Assembly (NCBI GenBank): GCA_903862935.1
Contig: CAIOZY010000024.1
Coordinates: 1-47,216, forward strand
DNA from: an uncultured Opitutaceae bacterium
Lineage (GTDB): Bacteria; Verrucomicrobiota; Verrucomicrobiia; Opitutales; Opitutaceae
Length of the DNA stretch: 47,216 nt
Reading direction: 5' to 3'
Of this stretch, positions 19,707-28,002 are shown one piece after another. Both the position numbers and the translations under genes were made by a program. The notes under the pieces are model-generated. The model made no database searches and was not told where the DNA came from. It saw only the letters and a program-made list of their open reading frames with translations. The stretch's first letter is position 1; each line of letters opens with the position of its first letter.

Positions 19707-21494
19707 ATGAGATACCCCAGACTGCCCATCACAGCTTTGGCCTTTCTTGCAGTGGCAGCGGCGGCCGCCGCCCCGGCAAACCCCGTGCAGGACCGGGCCG
19801 ACGTCTTCCTCAAGCTGGCCAATGCCGGCTACCAGGCGCTCTACCGGGTCAACAGCGAGGCCCAATGGGCTGCGGACACCGACGTCACGGCGGAGCACGA
19901 CGCCGCCGCCGCGGTGGCCGGGAAGGCCTATGCCGCATTCGCGGGCAACCCGGCCCTCATCTCCGAGGCTAAGGACCTGCTGGCCCAGAAAGAAAGGCTC
20001 AACGACCTGACGGTCCGCCAGCTGAGGCAGGTGCTGCTCAATGCCGCCGAGGGCCCCATGACAAACCCGACCCTTGTGGAGGCCCGGGTCGATGCTGAGA
20101 CCAGGCAGGCCTCCATCCTCAACAGCTTTGTCTTCAAGCTGCACGGCAAGCCGGTCACGGCCAACCAGATCGATGACGCCCTGACATCGAGCACAGACCT
20201 GGCCGAACGCCAAGCCGTCTGGGAGGCCTCCAAGGAGTCGGGCAAGGCGCTCAAGCCGGGGTTGATCAAGCTGCGCGACTTAAGAAACGGCGTCGCCCAG
20301 GAGCTGGGGCACAAAGACTACTTTGCCCTGCAGGTGGCGGCCTACGGCATGACGACACAGGAGATGGTTGCCATGCAGGAGGACTTCATGAGGGAGCTGC
20401 GCCCTCTCTACCTGCAGCTGCACACCTGGGCGAAGTACGAGCTGGCCCGCAAGTACCACCAGCCGGTTCCCAACCGCATCCCGGCCCACTGGCTCAACAA
20501 CCGCTGGTCCCAGCTGTGGACGGGCATGGTTCCCGCGGCCAATCTGGACGACCGGTTCACGGGGCGCTCCCCGGAGTGGATCGTCCGGACGGCCGAGCGC
20601 TTCTACACCGGCATGGGATTCGAGCCGCTGCCGCCGAGCTTCTGGACCAAGTCGGATCTGTATGCGCTCCCGGCCGGTGACCCGCGCCACAAAAACACCC
20701 ACGCCTCCTGCTGGCACATCGACCTGGACCGGGACATCCGTTCTCTTCAGAACATAGAGCCCAACGAGGACTGGTTCCACACGGCCCACCACGAGCTCGG
20801 CCACGGGCACTACTTCATGAGCTACACGCGGCCCGAGGTCCCGCCGCTGCTGCGGATCGGGGCGAACCCGGGCTTCCATGAGGGGATCGGGGAGCTGATC
20901 TCATTGGCCTCCAGCCAAGTACCGTACCTGAAGTCCGTCGGGGTCCTTCCTGCAGACTTCAAGGCTGACACGACAGCGTTTCTCCTCAACGACGCCCTGG
21001 GCAGCTCGGTTCCATTCATCTTCTGGGCGTCGGGGACGATGACCCACTGGGAGGCCGACGTGTACGCGGGCGGTCTGCCCGCCGACCAGTGGAACGCCCG
21101 CTGGTGGAAGCACGTCCGCGACTGGCAGGGGGTCGAGCCCCCGACGGAGCGGGGCGAGGAGTGGTGCGACGCGGCGACCAAGACTCACATCAACGACAAC
21201 CCCTGCTACTACTATTCGTACGCCGTGGCGACCGTGCTCAAGTTTCAGCTGCACGACTACATCGCCCGGCACATCCTCCACCAGAGCCCGCAGTCGTGCA
21301 ACTACGCGGACAGCCGCGAGGTCGGCGACTGGCTCCGCAGCATCCTCGACAAGGGTGGCACCCAGGACTGGCGTACGCTGCTCAAGGAGAAGACTGGCGA
21401 GGACCTCTCCACCCGGGCGATGGTCGAGTACTTCCGGCCCCTTAGTCTCTGGCTCGAGGAGCAGAACCGCGGACGAAAGATCGGCTGGGACTAA
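19707..21494 (+). CDS. M2-family metallopeptidase (ACE-like dipeptidyl carboxypeptidase)
   Basis: A 595-residue exported zinc peptidase with a signal peptide (about residues 1-22). The zinc motif is His362-Glu363-Leu-Gly-His366 in TAHHELGHGHYF, and the third ligand is Glu392 in FHEGIGELIS. The length matches a single ACE domain. C-terminal family features include TMTHWEADVYAGGLPADQWNARWW and PCYYYSYAVATVLKFQLH. M2 enzymes remove C-terminal dipeptides. In this setting it would trim peptides in the periplasm. The AAGGGG purine stretch abuts the ATG directly, so initiation may be weak or start elsewhere, but the signal peptide supports this start. Confidence 0.92.
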   Translation: MRYPRLPITALAFLAVAAAAAAPANPVQDRADVFLKLANAGYQALYRVNSEAQWAADTDVTAEHDAAAAVAGKAYAAFAGNPALISEAKDLLAQKERLNDLTVRQLRQVLLNAAEGPMTNPTLVEARVDAETRQASILNSFVFKLHGKPVTANQIDDALTSSTDLAERQAVWEASKESGKALKPGLIKLRDLRNGVAQELGHKDYFALQVAAYGMTTQEMVAMQEDFMRELRPLYLQLHTWAKYELARKYHQPVPNRIPAHWLNNRWSQLWTGMVPAANLDDRFTGRSPEWIVRTAERFYTGMGFEPLPPSFWTKSDLYALPAGDPRHKNTHASCWHIDLDRDIRSLQNIEPNEDWFHTAHHELGHGHYFMSYTRPEVPPLLRIGANPGFHEGIGELISLASSQVPYLKSVGVLPADFKADTTAFLLNDALGSSVPFIFWASGTMTHWEADVYAGGLPADQWNARWWKHVRDWQGVEPPTERGEEWCDAATKTHINDNPCYYYSYAVATVLKFQLHDYIARHILHQSPQSCNYADSREVGDWLRSILDKGGTQDWRTLLKEKTGEDLSTRAMVEYFRPLSLWLEEQNRGRKIGWD

Positions 21495-21496
21495 GA

Positions 21497-21991
21497 TCAG
21501 CCTGCCGGCCGGTGGTTTCCGCCGATCGGGATTCGGGCGTCCTCGAAGTAGTTGTCGTCGACCTCACAGGGCATCGACAGCTCGAGGATGAGCGAGGGCT
21601 CCATCCCCGTGAACCGGTGATAGACGCCGGGTGGAACCGGGAGCGACTGCCCACGGCCGAGCTCGAGGAGCCGGCCGCCGCAGTCGACTTCGATCCGCCC
21701 CTGGACGACGAAGAACGTTTCGTGCTTCACCCGGTGGCGGTGCTTGGGGCAGGTCTGGCCTGCGGTGACGGCCAGGTACTTTCCGCAGTACCCGGCCGCC
21801 GCCTCGTTCGCTATCCAGAACTCGATCAGGCCGACCTTGCCGAAGTCGCCCAGGCCGAAGTCCAGCACAAGGGGCGCCACGGGCGGCAGGGCAAGGTTCC
21901 AGATCGCGGCCTGCCGCCGGAACTCCGCGAGCGCGCGGTCGCGCCCGGGCCCCGACAGCGAAATCGCCAGTCCCTTGTCCAGCTCGTCCAT
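21497..21991 (-). CDS. Cupin protein, D-lyxose isomerase-like
   Basis: A 164-residue single-domain cupin. The metal site motif is PKHRHRVKHETFFVVQG (two His and Glu) followed about 30 residues later by PPGVYHRF (third His). The ending DDNYFEDARIPIGGN resembles D-lyxose ketol-isomerase-type cupins, which interconvert aldoses and ketoses using manganese. It is the third gene of a minus-strand unit after the DeoR regulator and the class III aminotransferase (22-nt gap), so it probably handles a sugar intermediate of that pathway. Start chosen at 21991, preceded by AAAGGCG. Binding-only cupin functions cannot be excluded. Confidence 0.7.
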   Translation of the reverse strand: MDELDKGLAISLSGPGRDRALAEFRRQAAIWNLALPPVAPLVLDFGLGDFGKVGLIEFWIANEAAAGYCGKYLAVTAGQTCPKHRHRVKHETFFVVQGRIEVDCGGRLLELGRGQSLPVPPGVYHRFTGMEPSLILELSMPCEVDDNYFEDARIPIGGNHRPAG

Positions 21992-22013
21992 GGCGCCTTT
22001 GCCAGTGGGGCCC

Positions 22014-23405
22014 TCAGCCGGCGTAGCCGAGCTCCTTCTCGGTCTCGCCGATCGCCTCATCGATCATGTCCATGCCCTTGAGCAGGGCCTTCTCGTCCAT
22101 GACGATCGGGGGGCTCATGCGCAGGATGTGCCCGGCGGGAATCCAGGCCAGGCCCTTGCGGAATGCCTTCTGGTAGACGAGCACGCCGGCCTTGTCGAAG
22201 GGCTCCTTGGTCTTGCGGTCCTTGACGAGCTCGATGCCCATGAGGCACCCCTTGGCGCGGACGTCGCCGATGATCTTGTGGGAGGCCTTCATCTTCTCCA
22301 TGCGCTTGAGGGCGAGCTCGCCCAGCTTGGTCGCGTGGTCGAGCAGGTTCTCCTCCTCGATCACCTCGATCGAGGCCAGGGCCGCCGCGCAGGCCATCGG
22401 GTTGCCCCCGTAGCTACTCGAGGCCGAGATCGACTCGAAGCTCTCCTTGAACGGCTCCCGTACGGCGACCGCCGTGACGGGGAACCCGTTGCCGAAGCCC
22501 TTGCCCAGGGTGACGACGTCCGGAATGACTCCCCAGTGCTCCATGCACAGCCATTTGCCGGTGCGCCCCCAGCTGGTGAGCACCTCGTCGGCCATGAGCA
22601 GCATCTTGTGCTGGTCGCAGAACTTCCTGAGCTTCGGGAAAAAGTCGTCCGGCGGCATGACCGAGCCGCCCCACCCCTGGATCGGCTCCAGGACAAAGCC
22701 GGCCACGGAGCCGACGGTCGCCTTCTCAATGTACTGGCCGTAGAACTCGATGTACTTGTCGGTGTCGATCGTCCCGTCGGCCTTGGCCCAGACGGGCCGG
22801 TAGGGGTCCGGGCGGGGCACCATGTGGGCGCCGGGGGCCCGCACCGCGCCGTAGACCGACGAGCGGATGTGTCCGAGGGAGACGGCGCTGTAGGTCTTTC
22901 CATGGAAGTCGTAGAAGCAGCTGATCGTCTCGTGCTTGCCGGTGGCGGCCCGAAGGACGCGTATCCCTGCCTCGACCGCCGTGGTGCCCGAGTCGTACAG
23001 CTGGTAGCCGTTGAGGTCGCCCGGGAGGATCTGGGCCATCTTCTCCATCAGCAGTGTCTTGATCGGCGTCGTGAAGTCGTGGGCGTTCATCAGGGTCGAG
23101 GCCGCCTTGGCGATCGCCTGGCTGATCTTGGGGTGGCAGTGGCCCAGGGTCGTCACGTAGATCCCCGACGAAAAGTCGATGTACTCGTTGCCGTCGACGT
23201 CCTTAAGCACGCATCCGGAGCCCGACTCGAACGAGACCGGGAAGAGCTTAACCTGGCCGCTGAGGCCCTTGAAGTGCTTGGTGCACCGGTCGTGCCAGGA
23301 CTTCGAGGCGGGGCCAGGGGGAGGAACGACGATGTGGGGGACCCGGTTCAGGTCGACTCGGCCCCAGTTGAGGGTGGAGAACGTTTGTGCGTTGGACTTT
23401 GTCAT
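22014..23405 (-). CDS. Class III PLP-dependent aminotransferase
   Basis: A 463-residue fold-type I enzyme. The PLP-binding lysine is Lys302 in TLGKGFGNG, the pyridine-N-contacting aspartate is Asp273 in MADEVLTSWGRTG, and the cofactor phosphate loop is DSGTTAVEAGIR at about 138-149. It resembles 4-aminobutyrate, ornithine and sugar-acid aminotransferases, but the longer N-terminus and its neighbours do not fit simple GABA catabolism. It lies 11 nt downstream of the DeoR regulator gene and upstream of the cupin. In this cluster it may add or remove an amino group on a sugar or aminopolyol. The substrate is open. Confidence 0.85.
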   Translation of the reverse strand: MTKSNAQTFSTLNWGRVDLNRVPHIVVPPPGPASKSWHDRCTKHFKGLSGQVKLFPVSFESGSGCVLKDVDGNEYIDFSSGIYVTTLGHCHPKISQAIAKAASTLMNAHDFTTPIKTLLMEKMAQILPGDLNGYQLYDSGTTAVEAGIRVLRAATGKHETISCFYDFHGKTYSAVSLGHIRSSVYGAVRAPGAHMVPRPDPYRPVWAKADGTIDTDKYIEFYGQYIEKATVGSVAGFVLEPIQGWGGSVMPPDDFFPKLRKFCDQHKMLLMADEVLTSWGRTGKWLCMEHWGVIPDVVTLGKGFGNGFPVTAVAVREPFKESFESISASSSYGGNPMACAAALASIEVIEEENLLDHATKLGELALKRMEKMKASHKIIGDVRAKGCLMGIELVKDRKTKEPFDKAGVLVYQKAFRKGLAWIPAGHILRMSPPIVMDEKALLKGMDMIDEAIGETEKELGYAG

Positions 23406-23416
23406 GGAGGGATTTC

Positions 23417-24193
23417 TCAGGCGGTTACGGTGATCACTTTGACTCCGAGGCGCGCGAAACGCCGGAGGGCGTCTCGGGGTGCGGCGGAGTCCGTGATGAA
23501 AATGTCGACATCGGCGAGGGAGCCGGAGCGGGCGAGGGCGGTGCGGCCGATCTTCGTGTGGTCGGCCAGCACGCACGTCCTTTTCGAGCTGCGCCGCATC
23601 ATCCTGTCGACGCGGGCGAGTCTTAAGTCGGTGTTGTAGATGGATCCGTCCAGCCCGATCCCGTCGGCCCCCTGGAAGGTCGTGTCCGCGGAGAACAGCT
23701 CCAGCCCGTGCTCGGTCAGGGGCCCGGTCAGGTCCGGGCTGCCGCGGCGGATGACGCCGCCGAGGAGGATCACCTCAACCCCGGGGGAATGCTGCAGTTC
23801 CGAGGCGACGGCGAGGCTCGGTGTGATCACGGTCAACCTCTCCCCGTCCCGCAGGACGGTCGCGAGTTCCAGGGTGGTCGTGCCCGTGTCCAGGATCAGG
23901 CGCTCGCCCGGTTGGACGAGCTTGCGCGCCTCGGCGACGATCGCCCGCTTGGCCGCCCGGTTTCTCTCTCGCTGGTTGCGGTAGTCGAACTCCAGGATCA
24001 TCCGCTCGCCCACGACCGCGCCGCCGTGTGTGCGGCGGATGTGCGCGTTGCTTTCCAGGGCCGCCAGGTCGCGGCGGATTGTCATCTCGCTGACCCCGAA
24101 CTCGGCCGCCAGCTCGGAGACGGCCACGCCGGGCCGCTCTGCGAGCAGCTCGCGGATCTTCGCGTGGCGCACGGCCGAGGAGGGCTTTTTCAC
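23417..24193 (-). CDS. DeoR-family transcriptional repressor
   Basis: A 258-residue regulator. The N-terminal winged helix-turn-helix (about 6-60) contains VAVSELAAEFGVSEMTIRRDLAAL, the DeoR family signature, followed by IRRTHGGAV. The C-terminal sugar-phosphate-sensing DeoRC domain (about 75-250) has LILDTGTTTLELA, LLGGVIRR and ADHTKIGR. Members are usually released from DNA by a phosphorylated sugar made by the operon kinase, here plausibly the FGGY kinase product. The gene leads the minus-strand unit and is divergent from the ceramidase-like gene, with a shared AT-rich control region at 24194-24311. Confidence 0.9.
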   Translation of the reverse strand: MKKPSSAVRHAKIRELLAERPGVAVSELAAEFGVSEMTIRRDLAALESNAHIRRTHGGAVVGERMILEFDYRNQRERNRAAKRAIVAEARKLVQPGERLILDTGTTTLELATVLRDGERLTVITPSLAVASELQHSPGVEVILLGGVIRRGSPDLTGPLTEHGLELFSADTTFQGADGIGLDGSIYNTDLRLARVDRMMRRSSKRTCVLADHTKIGRTALARSGSLADVDIFITDSAAPRDALRRFARLGVKVITVTA

Positions 24194-24311
24194 AATCGAA
24201 AGCGAGCGTCAAAAAAATGTTCGAAAGTGTCAATAACAACAAAATCAAACGTTTTTTAACATTTACAGGCCGAGGCCTGCGGGACAGGCTTACGGGCACG
24301 GATTCCCTCCC
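24194..24311. promoter_or_regulatory. Divergent AT-rich control region with DeoR-type repeats
   Basis: Between the DeoR gene and the ceramidase-like gene lies a markedly AT-rich stretch in an otherwise GC-rich region. It contains AAATGTT (24215-24221) and AACATTT (24258-24264) as an inverted pair. Two direct TCGAAAG blocks, at about 24197 and 24221, are each followed by GTCAA or TCAA. ATGTTCG is a half-site typical of GlpR/DeoR-type operators. It probably drives both divergent units and is bound by the DeoR protein. Confidence 0.5.
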
Positions 24312-25685
24312 ATGAAACATCCCGCAAGCGACGCGAAGCACTCCCCAAAACCCGCGGGCGGCCCGGCCGCCGCTCTCCTGGCCGGCGCAGCCGTCGCGGA
24401 CCTGACCCCGAAGACCAGCCAGTTCCTGTACGGCTACCCGCATGTCCCGCGTTACAGTACGGGCGTGCACGACCCGCTGCAGTGCTCGGCGCTGTACCTG
24501 AAGGGTGGAGGGGGAAGCGCGCTATTCCTCGCAAACGACATCATCCTGGTCGAAAAGAGCTTTGTCTTGTCGGTCCGGAAGCGGATCGCAGCCGAAACGG
24601 GCATAGCGCCGGACTCGGTGATGATCTCGGCGACCCACACCCACTCGGGGCCGCTGATGGCCGACTACATCAGCCACGCGTCGGACCCTGTGCTGCCGAA
24701 GACCGACCAGAAGTACGTCGCCTGGGCCGCCGACCAGATGGTCAAAGCCGGGGTTGCGGCGGTGAAGGCTGCGGTGCCCGCGGAGGTGGGGCTTGTGGCG
24801 GTCCGGGCCGAGGGTGTGGGCACAAACCGGCACGACCCGGCCGGGCCTGCCGACCCGCAGGTACCGGTGCTGGTGGCCCGGTCGCTGACGACGCACACGG
24901 CCCTGGCGGCGATGCTCGTCTACTCGATGCACCCCACGGTCCTCCACGAGGACTCGACCCTCATCAGCGGGGACTTTCCCCACTTCGCGCGCGAATACCT
25001 GCGCGGCAAGGTTCTCCCGGCCGGCTGCCCCATCCTCTACCACATGGGCACCGCGGGCAACCAGAGCCCTCGGCATGTCACCAAGGCGAATACGTTTGCG
25101 GAGGCTCAGCGGCTCGGCGAGAGGCTGGGCCAGACGATAGCCGCGGCGATCCCTGGGATCGTTTACCACAGCGACCTCCCGGTGTGGGTTCGGCAAAGCT
25201 ACTTGGAGCTCACGATGCGCAAGTTCCCCTCGCCCGAGGAGGCCGACCGAAATGAGAAAGAGGCCCGGGCGAGGTTCGACCACCTCAGGACGAGCGGGGC
25301 GCCCCGCCAGCAGACCCGCACAGCGGAGTGCGACTGGTTTGGCTCCGAGGAGACAGCCTGCATGGCCCGGGCCGCGGCCGACGGCCGCCTCGCTGAGGAG
25401 GCCGCATCCGCGCTGCCCATGGAGATCCAGGTCGCCCAGGTCGGCCCCTGGAAGTTCGTCGGGTGGCCGGGCGAGCACTTCGTGGAGTACGGACTGGCGG
25501 TCAAGGCCCGCTCCCCGGACACCTTCGTCATCACCGCCGCAAACGGGATGCTCCAGGGTTACATGGTGACCGCCGAGGCCGTCGCCGGTAAGTACTACGA
25601 GTCGACGAACGCGGTCTTCGAGCACACGAACGGGCCCCGGATCGTCGAGGCGACGCTCGGGCTCATCCTTGCGAAGAAACCCTGA
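24312..25685 (+). CDS. Neutral/alkaline ceramidase-like amidohydrolase (PF04734-like)
   Basis: A 457-residue protein related to neutral ceramidases, zinc amidases that cleave N-acyl bonds. Visible active-site matches: HTHSGP with His109 and His111, His207 in YSMHPTV, Ser252 in TAGNQSP (aligning with the nucleophile-bearing DVSP of bacterial ceramidase), Glu in GWPGEHFVEYG, and the GYMVTAEA...YYES segment that carries the zinc-binding tyrosine. Unlike secreted ceramidases it has no clear signal peptide, so it is probably cytoplasmic. It also lacks the C-terminal immunoglobulin-like domain. It leads an operon with an FGGY kinase (11-nt gap). This suggests it de-acylates an amino sugar or aminopolyol, not a sphingolipid. 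Confidence 0.8.
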   Translation: MKHPASDAKHSPKPAGGPAAALLAGAAVADLTPKTSQFLYGYPHVPRYSTGVHDPLQCSALYLKGGGGSALFLANDIILVEKSFVLSVRKRIAAETGIAPDSVMISATHTHSGPLMADYISHASDPVLPKTDQKYVAWAADQMVKAGVAAVKAAVPAEVGLVAVRAEGVGTNRHDPAGPADPQVPVLVARSLTTHTALAAMLVYSMHPTVLHEDSTLISGDFPHFAREYLRGKVLPAGCPILYHMGTAGNQSPRHVTKANTFAEAQRLGERLGQTIAAAIPGIVYHSDLPVWVRQSYLELTMRKFPSPEEADRNEKEARARFDHLRTSGAPRQQTRTAECDWFGSEETACMARAAADGRLAEEAASALPMEIQVAQVGPWKFVGWPGEHFVEYGLAVKARSPDTFVITAANGMLQGYMVTAEAVAGKYYESTNAVFEHTNGPRIVEATLGLILAKKP

Positions 25686-25696
25686 CCGAATAGGCC

Positions 25697-27073
25697 ATGT
25701 CGCTCTACCTCGGCATCGACCTGGGCACCTCCTACTTCAAGGTCGGCCTGTTCGACGCGGCCGGATCGCTCAAGGGACTGGGGCGGGTTGCGGTCGATCC
25801 GCGCACGCCCCGGCCCGGCCGCTATGAACTGCCCGCCCAGGCCTTTTGGCAGAAGCTCCGCAGGGGCCTGGACGAAGCCCTGGCTCAGGCCGGGGCGCGC
25901 GCGGACTCGATCGCGGCCCTGTCGTACTCCTCCCAGGCTAACAGCTTCCTCATCCTCGATCAGGCGGATGCCCCCCTGACCCCGTTGATCCTGTGGACGG
26001 ACACCCGGGGCGCCGAGGTGCCCCCGGCTTGGGAGGAGTTCTCCCAGACCGAGCCGTTCCGGCGCCACGTAGGATTCGCGGGAATCTCCGGAGGGTTTGC
26101 CGTCGGCAAGTGGCTTTGGATTGAGAAAAACCAACCGGAGATCTGGGCGAAGGCCCGCAGGCTGCTGACGATCTCCGACTACTTCACGTATGCCCTGACG
26201 GGAGAGCCTGTAGGGGACGGGAGTACCGCGGCCTTCTTGGGGATCTTCGACCTGACTGCGGGGACCTGGTGGGAGCGGTCCCTGGCGACCTTCTCGATCG
26301 ATGCGGGCAAGCTGTCGAGACCCATCAGGCCGGGATCGCGCTGCGGGGTCGTCAGTGCCCGGGGGGCCGCCTTGCTGGGCGTGCCCTCGGGGACGGCGGT
26401 TGCCGTCGGCGGCCTCGACCACCACATCGCCGCGGTCGGCTCGGGGGTCGGCCGCTTCGCCGAGATGAGCATCTCGACCGGGACTGTGCTCGCGGCCCTT
26501 GCGCTGGTCGACGAGCCCGCGCCGAAGGAGGGGTGCTACCACGGACCCCACGTCGACGGCCAGCGGTACTTCCGGCTCGCGTTCGACCCGGACGGCGCGG
26601 GGCAGCTTGAGGACTACCAGAAGCGGTTTTCGCCCGGGCTCTCCATTGAACAGCTTATCGCGCTTGCGGCCAAGACACCGGCCGGCTCCCGCCCGAGCGG
26701 AACCCCGACGGCCGGAGCCTCGGACAAGGAGCACGGAGCCCGGATTCGATGTATCCTCGAAAAGGTCGCGGCGACCCACTGCCGTCTCGCCCGGGACGCG
26801 GCCGACCCCGGGTCGGTCCGCCGGATCGTCGCCACGGGCGGCGGCGCGCGAAGCCCGTTCTGGCTCCAGATCAAGGCCGACATGCTCGGGATCCCGATCG
26901 TGAAGTCCTCGTCTTCCGAACGCGCCTGTCTGGGTGCCGCCGCGATAGCGGCCGCAGCAGCGGGGGCCTACGCCTCAGTCGACGAGGCCACCCTCGGGAT
27001 GGTGCACCCCGGCGACACGTTCGACCCGGACCCGAAGGTGACCGAGTTCTACCGGAAGCTGGCCGCTCAGTAG
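25697..27073 (+). CDS. FGGY-family carbohydrate kinase
   Basis: A 458-residue kinase of the hexokinase/actin fold. Phosphate-1 motif GIDLGTSYFKVGLFD lies at residues 6-20. The catalytic base is Asp241 in GGLDHH, with the ADP-binding STGTVLAAL shortly after and the C-terminal glycine motif IVATGGGARSPFW. The family phosphorylates ketoses, polyols and related sugars. It is cotranscribed with the ceramidase-like gene upstream and ends 7 bp inside the convergent NagB-like gene. The product is probably the inducer of the DeoR repressor and the substrate of the NagB-like enzyme. The exact sugar is not predictable. Confidence 0.87.
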   Translation: MSLYLGIDLGTSYFKVGLFDAAGSLKGLGRVAVDPRTPRPGRYELPAQAFWQKLRRGLDEALAQAGARADSIAALSYSSQANSFLILDQADAPLTPLILWTDTRGAEVPPAWEEFSQTEPFRRHVGFAGISGGFAVGKWLWIEKNQPEIWAKARRLLTISDYFTYALTGEPVGDGSTAAFLGIFDLTAGTWWERSLATFSIDAGKLSRPIRPGSRCGVVSARGAALLGVPSGTAVAVGGLDHHIAAVGSGVGRFAEMSISTGTVLAALALVDEPAPKEGCYHGPHVDGQRYFRLAFDPDGAGQLEDYQKRFSPGLSIEQLIALAAKTPAGSRPSGTPTAGASDKEHGARIRCILEKVAATHCRLARDAADPGSVRRIVATGGGARSPFWLQIKADMLGIPIVKSSSSERACLGAAAIAAAAAGAYASVDEATLGMVHPGDTFDPDPKVTEFYRKLAAQ

Positions 27074-28002
27074 GCCTTGTTCCAGTAGGGGCGGATCTCG
27101 GCGAGGGTCGACTCGCCGACCCAGCAGTCCGTCTCGAGCAGCTGGTGGATCGAGGTCGGCAGCAGCGGAGTGACCGGCCCGTGGATCACCAGGCGGGAGG
27201 TCAGGCGCTGCCAGGAGGCGAACGACCCGTCGATGCTCAGGGAGTGCAGGTCGAAGCGGTTCTTCGAACCGATCACCTCAGCCGGACCGATCGTCGCGGC
27301 CATCGGAGGAACCGCGCAGAGGTTGCCGGCCATGCCGAAGCTACCGTGCAGCGAGTTCTGGGCGAGCGTGAAGGGGCTCATCCGGCAGATCCTGGGCCCG
27401 TACGTCATCCACTCCTTGAGACTGGATGCGGCGAACTCGGGGGCGTCCGGCTCGATGAAGGCGAGGTGTCCGGTCCATCCGGGGCCGCTGTAGCAGGCAT
27501 CTGCGCCGCCCATGTCGGCGATCATCTTGCCGTAATCCTTGATGTTCTTGTGGGTCGGCCCCAGGGCCTGCTTTTCCGGTGGGCGCAGCTTCGGATCGAT
27601 CTGATAATAGAAGTACTTCTTGAACTGGTGCGCGAAACCCTGCGGCCAATCCTCGGGGGCGGTCTCGCCCTTCTCGTTGGCGTACTCGTCCATGTTGAAC
27701 GTGTGCAGTTTCTTGCAGTTCACCCGGAACTTGTTGATCAAGTAGGCGACCTTCTTGTACATCGGCGCCGGATTCGGGGTGATCAGGACGCACTCCCGGT
27801 TGTGGTCTGCCGCGTCCTTGATCCGGTGGAACATGTCCGCCATCCAGCGGAACTCGATCTCCCAGTCAGGCATCACGGTAATCCGGAATTTCGGATTCTT
27901 GTGCTTCGTGAAGTCCTTGTCCTTGATCCGGATTACGCGCTCGATCGCCTTGGTGTCCCGGAAGGGAATTATCGGTGATGGGGTGAACTTGAATGTGCTC
28001 AT
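27067..28002 (-). CDS. NagB-like (glucosamine-6-phosphate deaminase family) protein
   Basis: A 311-residue member of the NagB/RpiA fold, longer than the usual 260-270. It keeps the active-site loop FNMDEY (Asp105, the ring-opening/proton-transfer Asp72 of E. coli NagB) and GHLAFIEP with His179 and Glu184 (E. coli His143, Glu148). The residue matching catalytic Asp141 is Thr177 in GPGWTGHLAF, so the standard triad is broken and the reaction or substrate is likely altered. It has its own transcription unit, with AAGGAG 7 nt before the ATG. It converges on the FGGY kinase gene with a 7-bp overlap, supporting a shared pathway. Confidence 0.8.
   Translation of the reverse strand: MSTFKFTPSPIIPFRDTKAIERVIRIKDKDFTKHKNPKFRITVMPDWEIEFRWMADMFHRIKDAADHNRECVLITPNPAPMYKKVAYLINKFRVNCKKLHTFNMDEYANEKGETAPEDWPQGFAHQFKKYFYYQIDPKLRPPEKQALGPTHKNIKDYGKMIADMGGADACYSGPGWTGHLAFIEPDAPEFAASSLKEWMTYGPRICRMSPFTLAQNSLHGSFGMAGNLCAVPPMAATIGPAEVIGSKNRFDLHSLSIDGSFASWQRLTSRLVIHGPVTPLLPTSIHQLLETDCWVGESTLAEIRPYWNKAY

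Follow-up and report, generated by a model that had tools for sequence, protein, structure and literature searches.

A candidate gene cluster for the breakdown of an uncommon N-acylated amino sugar, centred on a ceramidase-fold hydrolase, in an Opitutaceae bacterium and in bacteria of other phyla

Six genes lie together at positions 21,497 to 28,002 of a 47,216-nucleotide contig (the whole stretch analysed, hereafter the window) from an uncultured Opitutaceae bacterium. They encode a cupin protein, a class III pyridoxal phosphate (PLP) aminotransferase (AT3), a DeoR-family repressor, a ceramidase-fold hydrolase (CER), an FGGY-family sugar kinase and a NagB-like protein. On balance we think it probable that they form a co-regulated catabolic cluster for an uncommon N-acylated amino sugar, and we infer the reactions, their order and direction and the class of substrate from protein families and gene context. 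A substrate of this kind had been proposed in a first-pass annotation of the window, and it fits with the frequent presence, in relatives, of a NagA-type deacetylase gene beside the NagB-like gene (38 adjacent pairs in 80 loci). The window is contig C24 of a 62-contig, 3.35-Mb genome (G000; other genomes are given G numbers and loci L numbers). The features of the locus are as follows.

21497..21991, minus strand: cupin protein resembling D-lyxose isomerase, a probable sugar isomerase and a rare accessory (above the Pfam cut-offs for Cupin_2, 7e-13, and Lyx_isomer, 1.8e-11)
22014..23405, minus strand: class III PLP aminotransferase, AT3 (Pfam Aminotran_3 2.2e-93)
23417..24193, minus strand: DeoR-family repressor with a GTG start, nearest curated model AgaR (Pfam DeoRC, HTH_DeoR)
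24216..24263, no strand assigned: palindrome-like element AATGTT-N6-TGTCAA-N24-AACATT, conserved in relatives, a candidate DeoR operator (or operator plus promoter)
24312..25685, plus strand: ceramidase-fold zinc amidohydrolase, CER, apparently cytoplasmic (PF04734 7.5e-10)
25697..27073, plus strand: FGGY-family sugar kinase (Pfam FGGY_N 4.1e-41, FGGY_C 9.1e-14)
27067..28002, minus strand: NagB-like protein with a non-canonical active site, its gene convergent with the kinase gene (predicted NagB fold)

The gene order, the spacings of 11-22 nt, the AT-rich divergent promoter and the 7-bp convergent overlap described earlier were all reproduced from coordinates, and all six genes were found at the positions and on the strands given beforehand. 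The cupin and AT3 genes are separated by 22 nt, AT3 and DeoR by 11 nt, and CER and FGGY by 11 nt, and the FGGY and NagB-like genes overlap convergently at 27067-27073. Pfam matches above cut-off assign five of the six products to their families, the exception being the NagB-like protein. GC content falls to 32.5% in the divergent region (24194-24270) vs 66.3% in the whole window, a value as low being reached by only 0.025% of 77-bp windows. In some scans the cupin query started at 21985, two residues short, and the AT3 query at 23408, one codon early.

The genes co-occur more often than chance would allow. Among 194 genomes of the phylum, relatives of CER (at least 40% identity) occur in nine, the next genome being clearly weaker (E 3e-25), and relatives of the NagB-like protein (at least 51% identity) occur in exactly the same nine (next genome E 5e-29). 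AT3 relatives (E 1e-100 or better) are present in 26 genomes, including all nine that hold both CER and the NagB-like protein, and the AT3 of the window is 75-85% identical to those of the other cluster-holding genomes. The profile probabilities are 1e-15 and 4e-9, relatedness being ignored in both. Within the nine genomes, AT3 lies within ~10 kb of CER in eight, an FGGY gene is adjacent to CER in seven and the NagB-like gene lies within ~10 kb in six, and the order of the genes differs among them. CER and AT3 are on separate contigs in G124, CER is at a contig end in G185, and the NagB-like gene is apart from CER in G110, G124 and G185. The cluster of G122 includes an acetyl-CoA synthetase gene, as would be expected if acetate is released. 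The CER gene of G124 (L073; G124:C47:57447-58754) has an internal TGA stop and is therefore broken or misassembled there.

The comparison of gene neighbourhoods that had been suggested for Verrucomicrobiota and Planctomycetota was extended by scanning an alignment of CER against 84,980 species, which gave 368 relatives, the best 80 of which by CER similarity were analysed; it revealed wide co-occurrence of the families, beyond those two phyla. The 80 loci come from Planctomycetota, Verrucomicrobiota, Bacteroidota, Spirochaetota, Chloroflexota, Hydrogenedentota, Sumerlaeota, Lentisphaerota and Kiritimatiellota as well as KSB1 and unplaced bins. Partner families were obtained by clustering the 1037 genes predicted around CER, many being named from one scanned member of a cluster or by eye from first residues; genes were called with a codon-usage script, not always correctly (L039 and L043, for instance, contain fused calls). 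Raw counts without a random-locus control, which are lower bounds since 47 of the 80 loci are shorter than 19 kb, were 67 for FGGY, 55 for NagB-like, 49 for AT3, 46 for NagA-like, 45 for DeoR and 26 for Gfo/Idh. With these six defined as core partners, at least three were found in 59 of the 80 loci, and in 29 of the 33 loci of at least 19 kb. Less frequent were DhnA/LsrF-type aldolase (15), MFS (15), HpaI-type aldolase (13), GntR (11) and cupin (3). The commonest neighbours are CER and FGGY, co-directional in 58 cases and with a gap below 50 nt in 50, followed by NagA-NagB (38, co-directional), DeoR-AT3 (32), NagB-CER (23) and divergent CER/DeoR (22). The cupin relatives are confined to L112, where the gene adjoins that for AT3, L123 and L155, and the cupin is not part of the cluster core. 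L157, from Bacteroidota, holds NagA-like, NagB-like, CER and FGGY genes together with a KpsF-type SIS isomerase, triose-phosphate isomerase and a YjbQ-type protein, and genes like these extras, judged by gene starts, also occur in L152 and L158.

CER is apparently a cytoplasmic zinc amidohydrolase. Its structure model (pLDDT 94.7) has the catalytic-domain fold of neutral ceramidases, the best match being 2zws (TMq 0.71), with 4wgk at TMq 0.69-0.71. Residues H109, H207, E388 and Y417 align to H97, H204, E411 and Y448 of 2zws, a Pseudomonas enzyme, which we take to be its four zinc ligands, and are invariant in 79/79 sequences; the stretch of the alignment bearing E411 and Y448 is weak taken alone (E 0.4). 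Conserved, too, is the Ser within GNQSPR. Alignment A4 of the family comprised 9 earlier rows and 47 of 74 CER rows. No obvious signal peptide was seen by eye, without a predictor, and the first strand of the model coincides in part with a hydrophobic stretch at ~20-31; together with a C-terminal end ~160-180 residues shorter, this agrees with the earlier suggestion of a cytoplasmic enzyme unlike known lipid ceramidases. A plasmid search for CER found nothing.

The NagB-like protein (311 residues) has no Pfam match at E 0.01 and matches the NCBIfam nagB models weakly (best E 2e-10; 40.4 bits vs the TIGR00502 cut-off of 236.9). Its structure model (pLDDT 94.0) is nevertheless nearer to NagB than to 6-phosphogluconolactonase, which shares the NagB fold, and NagB entries fill the first 18 places among its Foldseek hits (best E 3.1e-17). 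Asp72 is a catalytic residue of NagB, Asp141 has a catalytic role and the PTGGTP segment is the phosphate loop. Passages of two papers name His143 as a catalytic residue (PMC4008608) and Asp141 among the activator-binding residues (PMC4281351). Across the 59 sequences of alignment A3 (13 earlier rows and 46 of 54 eligible rows), D105 and H179, the equivalents of Asp72 and His143, are invariant, and the position of Asp141 in the E. coli enzyme is never Asp (Thr in 50, Ala in 4, Ser in 3, Asn and Cys in one each). When the family is aligned to solved chains, the TGG of the phosphate loop has no counterpart. The NagA-like proteins encoded in relatives' loci present a similar picture. E129, H191, H212 and D275, equivalents of the metal and catalytic residues of NagA deacetylase, are invariant in 19/19, and the REPG and FNAM segments, which in NagA are tied to the 6-phosphate, are mostly replaced by DPG and FYDVF, with exceptions that include L110 and L154. 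The three NagA-like proteins scanned scored 173.5-181.5 bits vs the TIGR00221 cut-off of 225.65. Both families thus appear, from their alignments, to keep most catalytic residues and to have largely lost the features for a 6-phosphate.

In AT3, the PLP lysine K303 is present in 50/50 sequences and a C-terminal Arg in 47/47 having a residue there; among solved structures it is closest to amino-acid racemases and GABA-type transaminases. The FGGY kinase has the conserved catalytic Asp in 66/66 sequences having a residue there, reaches no subfamily cut-off (best XylB, 194.5 vs 380.25 bits) and carries the motif SSQANSF, which to our knowledge fits no characterised FGGY subfamily. The DeoR protein belongs to its family by family-level match and hits the NCBIfam model AgaR at 3e-54 with 183.9 bits, below the cut-off of 260.

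A further argument for co-regulation is the element between the divergent genes. Of 25 intergenic regions between divergent DeoR and CER genes, 15 contain the motif GTCAA...(T/A)AACATT(T/G); 200 shuffles, which ignore relatedness, gave 0.02 on average and never more than 1. The motif was found post hoc in the same regions, and shared ancestry contributes to its conservation, since all 15 regions are from Verrucomicrobiota; those of L095, L096 and L098 are near-copies. The outer palindrome AATGTT-N(30-40)-AACATT, a pattern also derived from the same site, has a single occurrence in the 3.35 Mb of G000 and a single one in G122, both at the CER/DeoR promoter, and no perfect copy in G018 and G010; the reversed control pattern occurs nowhere in three genomes and at one place in G010. 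Planctomycetota loci L131, L133, L134, L146 and L153 have TGTT-N-AACA palindromes instead, such as TGTTCAAAATGAACA. The natural reading of the element is that of a candidate DeoR operator serving both divergent operons. Part of the conservation may be that of a promoter, because TGTCAA, read on the opposite strand, gives the promoter hexamer TTGACA; a sigma-70 scan gave one weak match, on the plus strand. An operator made of TTTCG/CGAAA repeats, guessed by likeness to AgaR, was rejected, such repeats not being enriched (5 seen vs 8.1 expected in 19 regions).

From these observations a pathway can be proposed. The cytoplasmic CER, joined in many relatives by the NagA-like deacetylase, would remove the N-acyl group. 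Nitrogen would then be lost in one or both of two ways: by the NagB-like protein, with a sugar lacking a 6-phosphate as its substrate, or by AT3, whose keto product could be reduced by a Gfo/Idh oxidoreductase; AT3 and Gfo/Idh may in this way convert a second or differently placed C-N bond to C-OH. The resulting ketose would be phosphorylated by the FGGY kinase and would enter central metabolism through a DhnA/LsrF-type aldolase, or through an HpaI-type aldolase with KpsF-type isomerase and triose-phosphate isomerase. DeoR, bound at the palindrome-like element, would repress both divergent operons until a phosphorylated intermediate appears. Classical NagA and NagB act on 6-phosphates, and FGGY kinases usually take ketoses or polyols. 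We place deacylation and deamination before phosphorylation because the NagA-like and NagB-like proteins have largely lost their 6-phosphate features while the kinase is of the FGGY type; the missing 6-phosphate loop of the NagB-like protein fits with a kinase that acts later. The sequence of phosphorylation followed by deamination that had been envisaged in the first-pass annotation is therefore doubtful, given a NagB-like family without the TGG loop and without Asp141 in 59/59 and NagA-like proteins mostly without REPG. A bolder form of the proposal, which we put forward only tentatively and regard as somewhat doubtful, is that of a multi-phylum pathway in which CER and a re-tooled NagA/NagB pair act on an unphosphorylated, possibly diamino, sugar before FGGY phosphorylation and aldol cleavage, in the reverse of the N-acetylglucosamine (GlcNAc) order.

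Several points weigh against the proposed breakdown of an N-acylated amino sugar. No NagA-like, aldolase or Gfo/Idh gene was noted beside the six genes in the window; elsewhere in the same genome, C13 carries a Gfo/Idh relative (52%) and C31 a NagA relative that is only distant (35%), and the pathway looks scattered in this genome, aldolases being outside that search. Upstream of the NagB-like gene the element is absent. With Asp141 lost, the NagB-like protein may have ceased to be a deaminase, and the compound cleaved by CER may not be an N-acyl amino sugar; we know of no activity for any of these enzyme subfamilies, and the residue roles used here for NagA, NagB and ceramidase come largely from general knowledge. 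Finally, AT3 had no match (E 1e-100) in 7 of 14 cluster genomes tested, most of which are drafts by their record titles, so that some absences may be assembly gaps. The seven are five from Bacteroidota plus L117 and L126; the sixth Bacteroidota genome, L119, has AT3. Since the five Bacteroidota genomes keep the core and, like L117 and L126, have no AT3 match, AT3 may not be obligatory and may instead widen the substrate range. Of the six families, the cupin is a rare partner, present in only 3 of the 80 loci, and AT3 is not universal.

AT3 also occurs in another context. Sixteen genomes of the phylum have AT3 relatives (64-70% identity) without close CER and NagB-like families. In the eight loci inspected (L077-L084), AT3 often adjoins genes for Gfo/Idh, FGGY, DeoR and a distant ceramidase-domain protein, the last found by BLAST in L078, L079 and L082 and by Pfam in L080; L077 has few of these partners. 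No BLAST hit to the NagB-like protein was obtained in L077-L084, NagA being outside that search. The AT3 loci L078-L084 may represent a sister pathway. L080, L082 and L084 encode a protein of 453-455 aa starting ...GFVGFGEVNTPREFI, for which the L080 copy has no Pfam match.

These loci bear on the best-surviving alternative, in which the substrate is a di-N-acylated diamino sugar (bacillosamine-type, nonulosonic acid product), with CER and AT3 plus Gfo/Idh dealing with one nitrogen and the NagA-like and NagB-like proteins with the other. Two amidohydrolases and two nitrogen-removing enzymes do often occur together, NagA-like and AT3 both being present in 13 of the 33 long loci; the L077-L084 loci, which gave no NagB-like BLAST hit, often surround AT3 with the partners named above, and NanA/DapA-type lyases are found in L086, L123 and L154. 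However, 11 of the 33 long loci have AT3 without NagA-like, seven have NagA-like without AT3 and two have neither, and the five Bacteroidota genomes without an AT3 match keep NagA-like, NagB-like, CER and FGGY. An obligate diamino-sugar reading is weakened by the AT3 missing from 7 of the 14 genomes, and overall we regard this alternative as unlikely.

Less likely still is an N-acylated aminocyclitol or amino-alditol, on which Gfo/Idh and AT3 would act as in the interconversion of inosose and inosamine. Models of inositol 2-dehydrogenase and of levoglucosan dehydrogenase match the Gfo/Idh partner in L124 with scores under their cut-offs, FGGY kinases can take polyols, and ceramide is itself an N-acyl 2-amino-1,3-diol. 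On the other hand, NagB-type aldose/ketose chemistry and a lyxose-isomerase-type cupin suggest a sugar, and no IolE-type gene was seen among the recurrent families that were scanned, a part of all recurrent families. We favour an N-acyl amino sugar over an aminocyclitol because the NagA-like and NagB-like partners are widespread.

A similarly low probability attaches to the view that no amino sugar is involved, CER being an esterase or other hydrolase and the NagB-like protein an isomerase or lactonase in the breakdown of an acylated sugar or sugar acid, or in biosynthesis. The loss of Asp141 and of the phosphate loop would be explained, the NagB fold is common to 6-phosphogluconolactonases, a family containing an HpaI-type aldolase is present in 13 of the 80 loci, and L123 has sugar-acid-type dehydrogenases. 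Nevertheless, an aminotransferase and a NagA-type deacetylase recur with the cluster, the NagB-like model is nearer to NagB than to 6-phosphogluconolactonase, and the DeoR and sugar kinase genes, with transporter genes in some loci, point to breakdown. Chance neighbours serving separate pathways, to which the convergent NagB-like gene without an element upstream and its separation from CER in G110, G124 and G185 might be taken to point, are exceedingly improbable, since the families co-occur in altered order over several phyla, their presence profiles are identical and a conserved promoter element is shared; for the CER-FGGY-DeoR-AT3 core chance was rejected on the phylum profiles and the 80 loci.

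Additional copies of two of the genes exist in the genome of the window. The second NagB-like copy (84% identical; G000:C50:1281-2213, L034) is ~1 kb from a gene with a URO-D-like start (by eye), and L140 also has a URO-D-type gene (Pfam). The second CER copy (65% identical; G000:C19:9268-10626, L035) adjoins genes with starts like thymidine kinase and short-chain dehydrogenase (by eye), and no other cluster genes were found by BLAST in the 20 kb around it. The two CER copies look like the result of a duplication within the lineage because they are sisters in a quick tree. Elsewhere, paired small adjacent genes (~130-185 aa) lie near the cluster in L089, L119, L121, L144, L147, L151, L152, L154 and L156; such pairs recur in Chloroflexota, Bacteroidota, Verrucomicrobiota and Hydrogenedentota, and three that were scanned (L123, L147 and L154) had no Pfam match. 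A module of HpaI-type aldolase, SDR, Gfo/Idh-like protein and aldo/keto reductase, whole or partial, is found near the NagB-like or CER gene in L117, L154, L123, L036 and L073 (the last two by gene starts only), and is perhaps a second sub-pathway. In the window, a peptidase M2 gene (angiotensin-converting-enzyme family; 19707-21494, plus strand) directly adjoins the cluster, and no link between them was seen.

No paper on this gene combination was found in the open-licence literature, searched by titles and the starts of abstracts, with subscription papers and preprints outside the scope. Each part falls in a known superfamily, but we know of no described pathway with this combination, with a NagA/NagB pair re-tooled in this way or with a cytosolic enzyme of ceramidase fold. 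If true, the proposal would assign functions to three groups: a NagB-like family of 311 residues that has no Pfam match, an unassigned FGGY group and a cytosolic ceramidase-fold family at risk of being misannotated as ceramidase. It would also suggest that lake, groundwater and gut bacteria (habitats from record titles) recycle a particular glycan component. The Bacteroidota version in L157 is small enough for reconstitution in vitro.

Among known systems, the neutral ceramidases (PF04734; 2zws of P. aeruginosa and human 4wgk) share with CER the fold, the zinc-site residues and the Ser in the GN-x-SP motif. However, CER has 457 aa vs 646 and 688 aa in the solved enzymes and fails to match them over the full length, the last 160-180 residues having no counterpart (matches stop at 484 and 508 of those chains); with 17.5 bits it is far below the NCBIfam neutral-ceramidase equivalog cut-off of 1200, and the neighbours of its gene, unlike those of neutral ceramidases, are sugar enzymes. 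NagB (7lqn, 1dea and 2bkv) and the NagB-like protein have in common the fold (TMq 0.66-0.68), the MDE and GH motifs and Glu or Asp at the position of Glu148; the latter differs in its longer N-terminus, its missing TGG loop, its replaced Asp141 and its lack of a Pfam match. The FGGY ketose kinases, such as xylulokinase and the autoinducer-2 kinase LsrK, share both Pfam domains and the catalytic Asp with the window kinase, which differs in reaching none of the subfamily cut-offs and in its SSQANSF motif. At the level of the whole cluster, the nearest likeness is to the nag and aga clusters for GlcNAc and GalNAc, which comprise a NagA/AgaA deacetylase, a NagB/AgaS deaminase and a DeoR-type AgaR. 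In common with these are a DeoR protein nearest to AgaR, NagA-like and NagB-like enzymes and, in relatives, a DeoC/LacD-type aldolase. Unlike them, the cluster described here has an FGGY kinase instead of a phosphotransferase system or hexokinase, a ceramidase-fold amidase and AT3, and its NagA and NagB homologues, which where scanned are below the family cut-offs, mostly do without the canonical 6-phosphate features.

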